NCBI GenBank assembly: GCA_014218215.1
Contig: CP043652.1
Location: 2,418,001-2,482,000, forward strand
Reading direction: 5' to 3'
From: Geodermatophilaceae bacterium NBWT11
GTDB taxonomy: Bacteria > Actinomycetota > Actinomycetes > Mycobacteriales > Geodermatophilaceae
Length of the DNA: 64,000 nucleotides
The position numbers were made by a program, and so were the translations under genes. This document shows, piece by piece, positions 15,355 to 20,488 of the stretch (positions are counted from its first letter, which is position 1; every line of letters starts with the position of its first letter). The notes under the pieces are model-generated. The model was not told where the DNA came from and ran no database searches. It worked only from the letters and a program-made list of their open reading frames with translations.

Positions 15355-16587
15355 ATGACCACCCTCAGTTCCAGCGTGACCCGCCAGGACGGCGGCTTCA
15401 CCGTCGAGGCCGTGCAGAAGACCGAGTACCGGCTCGTCCCGGTCGACGGCGTGTTCACGCCGGAGAACGAGCAGCTCGCCGACTGCTACCGCGCCGCCGG
15501 CCGCTGCCTCGCCGTCGTCGACGAGAACGTGCTGGCCCTGCACCGCGAGACGATGCAGGCCTACTTCGACGCCCACGGCATCGCGCTGACCGTCATCCCG
15601 GTGGCCATCGCCGAGACCGACAAGACGCTGGCCACCCTCGAGCGCCTCGTCGACGCCTTCTCCGCCTGGGGCCTGCTGCGCACCGAGGCCCCGCTGGTCG
15701 TCGGCGGCGGCTTGGTCACCGACGTGGCCGGCTTCGCCTGCGCCTCCTACAAGCGGTCCACGCCGTACATCCGCATCCCCACCACGCTGATCGGCCTCAT
15801 CGACGCCAGCGTCTCGATCAAGGTCGCGGTGAACCACGGCAAGGCCAAGAACCGGCTGGGCGCCTACCACGCCAGCTCGACGGTCTTCCTGGACTTCTCC
15901 TTCCTGGCCTCGCTCGCCGAGGACCAGGTGCGCAACGGCATGGCCGAGCTGATCAAGATCGCCGTCGTCGCGAACCGGACCGTCTTCGACCTGCTCGACG
16001 AGCACGGCGAGGACCTGCTGCGCACCCGTTTCGGCCACCTCGACGGCACCCCGGAGATCCGCAAGATCGCCGACCAGGTCACCGACGAGGCGATCGACAC
16101 CATGCTGCAGCTCGAGGTGCCCAACCTCGCCGAGCTCGACCTGGACCGGGTGATCGCCTACGGGCACACCTGGAGCCCCACGCTGGAGCTCACCCCGGAG
16201 ACCCCGTTCTTCCACGGGCACGCGATCAGCGTCGACATGGCCTACTCGGCGACCCTGGCCGCCGCGCGGGGGTACATCACCGTCGCCGACCGCGACCGGG
16301 TGCTGGCGCTGTTCAGCCGCCTCGGCCTCACGATCGACACCCCGTACCTGACCGCGGACCTGCTGCAGGAGTCCACCAAGTCCATCCTGCAGACCCGCGA
16401 CGGCCTGCTGCGCGCCGCGGCCCCCAAGCCGATCGGGGAGTGCACGTTCATGAACGACGTGGACGACGCCGAGCTGGCCCGCACCCTCGACCTGCACCGC
16501 GAGGTCGTCTCCGCGCTGCCCCGCGAGGGTGCCGGTGTCGACGCGTTCATGGTCCCGCGCACGAGCCCCGTCGTCGCCGCACCGTGA
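15355..16587 (+). CDS. mysA: Demethyl-4-deoxygadusol synthase (MysA-type sugar phosphate cyclase)
   Basis: About 410 residues. It belongs to the dehydroquinate-synthase-like sugar phosphate cyclases: [21 protein letters not shown] (NAD and metal region), [50 protein letters not shown] and [12 protein letters not shown], which holds one zinc histidine, with another at FHGHAIS. The sequence resembles the cyanobacterial DDGS (Anabaena Ava_3858) closely in my memory, more than 2-epi-5-epi-valiolone synthase. DDGS cyclises sedoheptulose 7-phosphate to demethyl-4-deoxygadusol, the first committed step to mycosporines. The following methyltransferase, ATP-grasp and D-Ala-D-Ala ligase-like genes support this choice. 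The AGGAGA ribosome-binding site is good. Confidence 0.92.
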
Positions 16588-17372
16588 CGGTGTCGGCAGG
16601 GCTGCGTCCGGTCACGCCGCTGGGCATCCTGGCGGCGCGGCTGGACGCGGTCTGCGGGCGCCTGGACGGGGTGCCCGAGGAGGTCCGCGCCGAGCTCGAG
16701 GGCATCCGGGACCTCGCGGTGGGCTTCGAGCCCTACCTCGAGGCGCAGACGACGCCGGAGTCCCCGGCTCTCGCACTGCTGGCCGAGCGCACCCTGGCCG
16801 CCGCGTGGTCGGGGTCGCTGGAGGCCGAGATGCTCTCGGGGCACGTGGAGGGCCGGTTCCTGGCGTTCCTGCTGCGCACGGCGCGGGCCCGTCGGGTGCT
16901 GGAGGTCGGCATGTTCACCGGCTACTCGGCGCTCGCGATGGCCGAGGCGCTGCCCGCCGACGGCGAGGTCGTGGCCTGCGAGCTCGACGCCGACGTCGCC
17001 GCCTTCGCCCGGGAGTGCTTCGACGAGTCCCCGGACGGCGGCACGATCGACGTCCGGGTCGGCCCGGCGGCGGACACGCTGGCCGCGCTGGTCGCCGAGG
17101 GGCAGGTGTTCGACGTCGTCTTCGTCGACGCCGACAAGGCCGGGTACGCCGGCTACCTGCAGACCGTGCTGGACGGCGGGCTGCTCGCCGACGGCGGTCT
17201 CGTGGTCGTGGACAACACCCTCATGCAGGGCCAGCCCTGGGCCGGGGACCGCACCGCCAACGGCGAGGCCATCGCCGCGTTCAACGACGCCGTCACCGCC
17301 GACCCCCGGGTCGAGCAGGTGCTCGTCCCCCTCCGCGACGGGATCACCCTGATCCGCCGCACCGACAGCTGA
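16584..17372 (+). CDS. mysB: O-methyltransferase making 4-deoxygadusol (MysB-type)
   Basis: About 262 residues from a GTG that overlaps the mysA stop as GTGA. It is a class I SAM-dependent methyltransferase of the caffeoyl-CoA OMT family: EVGMFTGYSALAMAEALP (motif I), VVACELDADVAAFAREC, FDVVFVDADKAGYAGYLQ with the metal-binding Asp, and VVVDNTLMQGQPW. In MAA synthesis this enzyme methylates demethyl-4-deoxygadusol to 4-deoxygadusol. The tight coupling to mysA supports that substrate. Confidence 0.92.
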   Translation: MTVSAGLRPVTPLGILAARLDAVCGRLDGVPEEVRAELEGIRDLAVGFEPYLEAQTTPESPALALLAERTLAAAWSGSLEAEMLSGHVEGRFLAFLLRTARARRVLEVGMFTGYSALAMAEALPADGEVVACELDADVAAFARECFDESPDGGTIDVRVGPAADTLAALVAEGQVFDVVFVDADKAGYAGYLQTVLDGGLLADGGLVVVDNTLMQGQPWAGDRTANGEAIAAFNDAVTADPRVEQVLVPLRDGITLIRRTDS

Positions 17373-17380
17373 GGACCCCC

Positions 17381-19479: not shown

Positions 19480-19480
19480 G

Positions 19481-20488
19481 ATGACCACCCGCGTGCTGCA
19501 CCTCGTCGGCTCGCCCACGAGCGCCTTCATGGACGACCTGTCCCGGCTCTACGCCGCCGACTGCCTGGCGAACGTCGGCCCGGGCTGGGAGCACGTGGTC
19601 GCCCACGTCTCGCCCGACGGCTCGTGGCGCTTCCCCGAGACGCTCGACACCCTGGCCGCTGCCGAGCCGATGCCCATCGGAGCGGGCATCGCCCGGCTCA
19701 CCGCACTGGACGTCGACGTCGCGCTGCCGCAGATGTTCTGCATCCCCGGCATGACCCACTACCGCTCGCTGCTGGACACCCTGGGCATCCGCTACGTCGG
19801 CAACACCCCCGACGTGATGGCGCTGGGTGCGCACAAGGACCGGGCCAAGGCCGTGGTGGCCGCCGCCGGCGTCCGGGTGCCGGACGGCGAGGTGCTGATG
19901 CGCGGGCAGGAGCCCACGCTCGCGCCGCCCGTCGTCGTCAAGCCGGTGGACGCCGACAACTCCCACGGCGTGACGCTCGTGCACGACACCGACGACTACG
20001 GGGCCGCCCTGGCGGCCGCGTGGGAGCACTCCGACGGCGCCCTGGTCGAGCAGTTCGTGCCGCTGGGCCGCGAGGTGCGCTGCGGCGTCGTCGTCCGGGA
20101 CGGGGAGCTCGTGCCGCTGCCGCTGGAGGAGTACGGCCTGGGCGAGGGTCGTCAGGTGCGCACCGCCGAGGACAAGATCCGGCGCGCGGACGACGGCACC
20201 CTGGGCCTGATGGCCAAGGACACCCCGACGGTCTGGATCGTCCCGGCCGACGACCCGGCGAACGCCGCCGTCTGGGAGGCCGCGCGGGCCTGCCACGTCG
20301 CCCTAGGCTGCCGGGACTACTCGCTGTTCGACTTCCGGATCGACCCCGACGGCGTGCCGTGGTTCCTCGAGGCCGGGCTCTACAACTCCTTCGCCCGGCA
20401 GAGCGTGATCCCGACGATGGCCCGGGCCGCCGGCATCGAGCTGCCCGAGCTGTTCGCCGCCGGCATCGCGGGCGCCCTGGCCCGCTGA
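19481..20488 (+). CDS. mysD: D-Ala-D-Ala ligase-like enzyme adding the second amino acid (MysD-type)
   Basis: About 335 residues, ATG one base after mysC. It is an ATP-grasp enzyme of the D-Ala-D-Ala ligase group: [35 protein letters not shown] (ATP-binding lysine), [15 protein letters not shown] and [11 protein letters not shown]. MysD attaches a second amino acid, such as serine, threonine or alanine, to mycosporine-glycine and gives imino-MAAs such as shinorine or porphyra-334. The preferred amino acid cannot be predicted here. The protein is expected in the cytoplasm and completes the core pathway. Confidence 0.9.

Follow-up and report, generated by a model that had tools for sequence, protein, structure and literature searches.

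The window analysed here, a stretch of 64,000 nucleotides (contig CP043652.1, positions 2,418,001 to 2,482,000) from the 4.59 Mb single-contig genome of Geodermatophilaceae bacterium NBWT11, contains a mycosporine-like amino acid (MAA) operon of the HAD-mysA-mysB-TauD-mysC-mysD type, from which MAA production is predicted. The names mysA to mysD are labels taken over from the known pathway, and they are consistent with the gene families and with the recurring clusters. A sequence-only reading of the same DNA had placed mysA, mysB, a TauD-type dioxygenase gene, mysC and mysD in this order at 15355–20488, and gene calls together with profile searches recovered all five, closely packed on the + strand. 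The extent given there did not stand, as a gene of the HAD fold (14676–15338) lying 16 bases 5' of mysA had been missed, and the probable transcription unit therefore starts one gene earlier, at HAD. The genes are, in window coordinates:

14676–15338, + strand: first gene, predicted HAD-fold pseudo-phosphatase (Pfam HAD_2, 9.7e-22)
15355–16587, + strand: mysA, 3-dehydroquinate synthase-superfamily cyclase, possibly a desmethyl-4-deoxygadusol synthase or an epi-valiolone synthase (DHQ_synthase, 1.4e-28; DHQS_C, 2.6e-16)
16584–17372, + strand: mysB, O-methyltransferase with a GTG start (Methyltransf_3, 1.2e-47)
17381–18169, + strand: predicted TauD/TfdA-family Fe(II)/2-oxoglutarate oxygenase (PF02668, 8.3e-60)
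18166–19479, + strand: mysC, ATP-grasp ligase (NCBIfam PRK06849, 432.9 bits; cut-off 406)
19481–20488, + strand: mysD, D-Ala-D-Ala-ligase-like ATP-grasp ligase (Dala_Dala_lig_C, 1.5e-15)

The mysA stop and the mysB start overlap in a shared GTGA, 8 bases separate mysB from TauD and a single base separates mysC from mysD. The mysC start may be a conserved CTG codon at 18166 inside the TauD stop, in which case the two genes have CTGA in common, or else the first usual start, GTG at 18238, which lies 68 bases past the TauD stop. CTGA, with the CTG in the mysC frame, was read in 7/7 Klenkia-type loci (window 18160–18240 and L002–L007), and the same site reads GTGA in six of nine other loci inspected. 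The Pfam search applied to all operon proteins gave no match for MysC. A scan for promoters and terminators found none (shuffled sequences averaged 0.1 and 0.7).

A 3-dehydroquinate synthase-type cyclase, an O-methyltransferase, an ATP-grasp ligase and a D-Ala-ligase-type enzyme thus adjoin one another, as in the known mysABCD set. The genome collection that was searched held 263 MysC relatives, and the best 80 of these by likeness to the window MysC were analysed as loci, a choice which favours relatives resembling the window protein and leaves Actinosynnema mirum (A. mirum) outside the 80. The loci were divided by record title into 44 actinobacterial and 36 other loci. The closest MysC relatives listed were from Klenkia species and Modestobacter sp. 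Leaf380 (83–88% identical), and the host is accordingly regarded as a Geodermatophilaceae member of the Klenkia type. Relatives of mysA were 57–92% identical in the MysC loci that extended far enough, with 41% in L073, and relatives of mysD adjoined mysC. The operon is beyond chance, because this set of genes is found again across many genera. The serS gene lying 3' of mysD in the window was rejected as a member, as among the 80 loci it was found within the stretch only in L002.

The occurrence of the HAD and TauD genes was then compared with that of MysC in an order-level set of 397 genomes, drawn evenly from a larger group, with thresholds of 1e-60, 1e-35 and 1e-45 for MysC, HAD and TauD, which were set so as to exclude HAD and TauD proteins of the ordinary kind. 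There were 28 genomes with MysC, 26 with HAD and 25 with TauD, the sets being nested, and neither HAD nor TauD was detected at these thresholds in any of the 369 MysC-negative genomes. The exceptions among the 28 were G186 and G244, which have neither gene, and G335, which has HAD without TauD. As 25/28 MysC genomes have TauD and 0/369 genomes without MysC do, the oxygenase belongs to the MAA pathway by these sequence comparisons, as the sequence-only reading had proposed; clusters regularly free of the gene, with the gene elsewhere in another role, were not what the counts showed. Within the family (112 genomes), strong MysC matches (82–100% identity) were confined to eight genomes, the window's own included, all of the window's genus; a ninth genome of that genus (73% complete) gave no MysC match, and ten genomes of other genera had only weak matches (25–33% identity).

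The same linkage was seen in the best 80 loci. All 44 actinobacterial loci carry a TauD gene, and of the 36 others, 28 have neither gene, six have both and two have HAD only. A single member of the pair was present in five loci (TauD in L011, L013 and L016; HAD in L061 and L065), all at a contig edge, where the missing partner may have been cut off; for L061 this needs TauD to lie upstream of HAD, as it does in L008. When loci with at least 1.5 kb outside the outer genes were considered (n = 58), 40 had both genes (two with a broken TauD) and 18 had neither, so that 58/58 were all-or-none. Identity distances were also correlated across 43 loci and the window, all with six genes and intact TauD and HAD (L010 and L055 being excluded by hand), giving r values of 0.72 for TauD-mysC, 0.83 for HAD-mysC and 0.79 for TauD-HAD, none of which was reached in 2000 permutations.

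The TauD protein is, by its family, modelled fold and intact metal and cosubstrate residues, an Fe(II)/2-oxoglutarate oxygenase, with its activity predicted. Pfam TauD was the sole family above threshold and PhyH gave no match, which agrees with the earlier statement that the enzyme is not of the type of MysH, the palythine-forming oxygenase of cyanobacteria. The model had a mean predicted local distance difference test score (pLDDT) of 95.1 and the TauD-family fold, resembling herbicide and taurine oxygenases and PlaO1. The HxD...H triad and a downstream arginine that mark the TauD/TfdA family (H93, D95, H237 and R248) were invariant in 40/40 aligned TauD proteins, as were T120 and R252. The roles of these residues (metal, 2-oxoglutarate and the acid group of the substrate) are assigned as in E. 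coli TauD. Two PhyH matches elsewhere in the genome were considered as MysH substitutes and set aside, as they lie at 3.85 and 0.36 Mb and the operon at 2.43 Mb.

A tree of TauD proteins divided 31 ordinary rows, 28 of which came from a single cyanobacterial family, from 50 MAA rows with support of 100/99. MysI, a TauD/TfdA oxygenase of Nostoc sp. UHCC 0926, joined through a branch of 7.15 at an uncertain position, and the MAA group is therefore scored as two changes and not one. The window enzyme is, by sequence, a third oxygenase type in MAA clusters after MysH and MysI, though the tree cannot place the latter. A 387-residue TauD-family protein adjoining a non-ribosomal peptide synthetase (NRPS) gene in locus L063 is 82% identical to a counterpart on plasmid NZ_CP117772.1 of Nostoc sp. 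UHCC 0926, which is flanked by stretches matching the L063 methyltransferase and NRPS, the arrangement given for mysFIE in PMC10510106. By strain, plasmid and neighbours we took NZ_CP117772.1:759214–760359 as MysI. In BLASTP, the best stretch between the L063 relative of MysI and the window TauD was 23 residues (E 0.007), and no HAD of the operon kind was found within 8 kb of MysI. Orthology of the window TauD to MysI was not supported, with no convincing alignment through the L063 relative and no mysE or mysF neighbours. In two cyanobacterial clusters, an EamA-type transporter gene, a candidate MAA exporter, lies between mysC and the mysI-like gene (L063 11501–12472 by Pfam; L044 1618–2610 by likeness).

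The HAD protein belongs to the HAD superfamily, with a core and cap. Its model (pLDDT 95.7) was matched best by the CbbY structures 4uat, 4uau and 4uar, the top match having a template modelling (TM) score of 0.87. The DxD of motif I, which supplies the nucleophile and acid/base of HAD phosphatases, is replaced by G7-S8-I9 in the window protein. This loss was seen in all 53 HADs including that of the window: position 7 was Gly and position 8 Ser in 53/53, and position 9 was Ile in 51, Leu in one and Met in one. Thr111, Lys146 and Glu170 were kept in 53/53 and Asp171 in 51/53. With the DxD lost, catalysis through an aspartyl-phosphate is not to be expected in its usual form, while the remainder of the site is retained. 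Sequence and model together mark the HAD as a conserved pseudo-phosphatase with the fold of CbbY-like proteins.

The pair occurs also in some cyanobacteria, contrary to PMC11888242, according to which Cyanobacteriota lack both genes. Five cyanobacterial loci among the best 80 (L022, L023, L041, L055 and L069) have both genes, and their TauDs form one well-supported branch (100/100) with that of the cyanobacterium G522, which speaks against contamination. L010 is labelled Melainabacteria, and its TauD groups among actinobacterial TauDs. In G522 the HAD-TauD pair (L162 8375–10809) lies ∼140 kb from mysABC, and in G593 it is on a contig other than that of the mys genes; the pair thus stays together when apart from the mys genes. 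An SMP-30/gluconolactonase-like gene comes after the G522 pair. The TauD of G579 (39%) was set aside, as it adjoins a citrate synthase-like gene and has no mys genes beside it.

Considering all of this, the best explanation, to which we give a probability of about two in three, is an MAA operon in which TauD oxidatively removes the ring glycine (shinorine to palythine-serine), with HAD as its partner. From the known pathway, mysA and mysB would form 4-deoxygadusol, mysC would add glycine and mysD would add a second amino acid, serine giving shinorine. TauD would then hydroxylate the glycine on the ring at its alpha carbon, and the resulting carbinolamine would split into glyoxylate and a free ring amine, yielding palythine types such as palythine-serine, by analogy with MysH and MysI and with the products of Rhodococcus fascians (R. 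fascians). Such glycine removal would be convergent with that of both known enzymes.

The R. fascians data come from an unpublished meeting abstract cited in PMC11888242, in which S. coelicolor M1152 with the D188 operon, HAD and TauD included, reportedly formed shinorine, palythine and palythine-serine. In R. fascians NBRC 12155 (L081) we found HAD and TauD relatives with 59% and 57% identity, respectively. Four A. mirum genes are listed as giving shinorine in yeast (review PMC10384724), and G186, taken as A. mirum, has mysABCD without HAD and TauD. That genes without the pair give shinorine, and an operon with it reportedly gives palythines as well, supports TauD as the maker of palythines. 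ScoE-type enzymes were also among the TauD relatives (ScoE profile 79.9 bits against a cut-off of 400), and their oxidation of an N-CH2-COOH group makes the glycine chemistry plausible, without showing it.

What HAD would contribute is a guess: perhaps it is a dedicated partner that holds the substrate or aids the break-up of the carbinolamine. A fuller form, put forward tentatively and itself rather doubtful, has TauD hydroxylating the glycine on the ring, while the CbbY-like HAD, bare of catalytic residues, would bind either the carbinolamine or the anionic substrate and push the reaction towards glyoxylate and palythine. According to PMC11888242, HAD is highly co-localised with TauD, and its role is left open there.

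Several points weigh against glycine removal by TauD. The R. fascians products are known second-hand through PMC11888242, in the available text of which no TauD deletion is reported, the alpha-carbon chemistry is assigned to this TauD clade by analogy, and the likeness to ScoE is weak, the herbicide and taurine oxygenases and PlaO1 being better-scoring solved relatives. The G335 genome (99% complete, single contig) has HAD-mysABCD without TauD (L130 7045–12084), so that either HAD may act independently of TauD or the latter was lost. In G148 the TauD frame is interrupted by one stop, and in two of the 44 actinobacterial loci TauD is broken with HAD intact and mysABCD present: it is degraded in Rhodococcus sp. 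1168 (L031 12321–12720) and split into two frames in Nocardioides mangrovicus (L019 9241–9980). Both are possible natural knock-outs, although the L019 split could be a sequencing error. TauD also tracks the pathway genes less closely (r 0.61 with mysA and 0.72 with mysC) than these track each other (mysA-mysC 0.91). Lastly, the co-occurrence counts include related genomes, and Fisher values from them therefore overstate independence.

The leading alternative is the one preferred by the sequence-only reading, that the product of TauD is a new MAA, whether hydroxylated, O-demethylated or decarboxylated. TauD relatives do oxidise many small acids, and a search for Klenkia and mycosporine together found no report, of a product or otherwise, in the literature covered. 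Against this, the related R. fascians operon reportedly gives known MAAs (PMC11888242), which are the closest product data, and palythines are the outcome given for MysH as well as for MysI (PMC10510106). We consider a new MAA improbable; a known palythine is the likelier product.

Less probable again is that TauD acts before ligation, with a free amino acid or 4-deoxygadusol as its substrate, giving mysC or mysD an unusual building block. The place of the gene in the window had been taken to show its reaction step, and 16 of the 44 actinobacterial loci do have TauD between mysB and mysC. In 27 of them, however, it comes after mysD, and in one it is on the other strand, so position says nothing on the order of steps. 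The R. fascians products, moreover, carry glycine- and serine-derived groups (PMC11888242).

It is very unlikely that HAD is an active phosphatase for a phosphorylated intermediate of the pathway, even with the HAD fold, a CbbY-like cap and motifs II–IV kept. We presume that mysA uses a sugar phosphate, which would favour such a role. The nucleophile Asp is nevertheless Gly and the acid/base Asp is Ile, Leu or Met throughout the 53 proteins, and shinorine is listed as formed in yeast from A. mirum genes without HAD (PMC10384724). The least credible account, that TauD and HAD serve another function such as sulfonate or sulfate ester use and merely ride with the mys genes, could draw on the taurine and sulfate-ester oxygenases among solved TauD relatives and on the distant pair of G522, but is opposed by the absence of both genes, at the thresholds used, from the 369 MysC-negative genomes, by the presence of the split pairs of G522 and G593 in MysC-bearing genomes and by tight junctions across many genera.

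Further downstream in the window, 5 kb from mysD, lies a microbial rhodopsin gene (25525–26436; Bac_rhodopsin, 5.9e-41). It adjoins a gene for a regulator of the MerR type that contains a B12-binding-2 domain (within 23951–25414), reminiscent of light-sensing regulators; a sigma factor gene is located nearby on the opposite strand (23509–24357).

The operon points to the oxygenase that would form sunscreens of the palythine type in actinobacteria, an enzyme distinct from both MysH and MysI. The HAD, which keeps its fold and most of its site but lacks the catalytic aspartates in each of the 53 proteins aligned, provides an easy test case for the change from a dead enzyme to a pathway partner within a six-kilobase operon. 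The cluster kind itself has already been described, and the linkage of TauD with actinobacterial mys clusters, which the earlier reading had suggested checking and which was found, is in essence in PMC11888242. Haloacid dehalogenase and mycosporine are mentioned together in that preprint and in an alga paper. The loss of the HAD catalytic aspartates, the cyanobacterial pair and the separateness of TauD from MysI were not found in print in our literature searches, which covered few subscription papers.

Compared with known systems, the operon is closest to the clusters of the 2025 GATOR-GC preprint (PMC11888242), where HAD and TauD/TfdA are presented as conserved members of MAA clusters in actinobacteria and occurrences in Pseudomonadota and Bacillota are given as well. 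The gene set is the same (3-dehydroquinate synthase type, O-methyltransferase, ATP-grasp, D-Ala-D-Ala ligase type, HAD and TauD/TfdA), and with both genes beside the mys genes the window operon is a Klenkia-type copy of this cluster type; the available text of the preprint is silent on the loss of the HAD catalytic aspartates. MysH is likewise an Fe(II)/2-oxoglutarate enzyme of an MAA cluster and probably carries out the same net reaction as the window TauD, but it belongs to the phytanoyl-CoA dioxygenase family (PMC10510106, PMC11888242), to which the window protein, a member of Pfam TauD, does not. MysI shares with the window enzyme the Pfam TauD family, the MAA cluster and the proposed glycine removal (PMC10510106). 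It differs in its length of ∼385 residues and in its NRPS and methyltransferase neighbours, the window TauD being accompanied by HAD and mysABCD. The ScoE-type (carboxymethyl)amino fatty acid oxygenases of the TauD family act, by their database name, on an N-linked CH2-COOH group, with another substrate and outcome. CbbY, a xylulose-1,5-bisphosphate phosphatase, is the solved protein nearest to the HAD (39% identity) and has motifs II–IV and many cap residues in common with it, while D8 and D10 of CbbY (N in the D10N mutant that was aligned) face G7 and I9 of the window protein. The proposed pairing of TauD with such a HAD can be likened to peptide amidation, where a hydroxylating part works with a lyase part.

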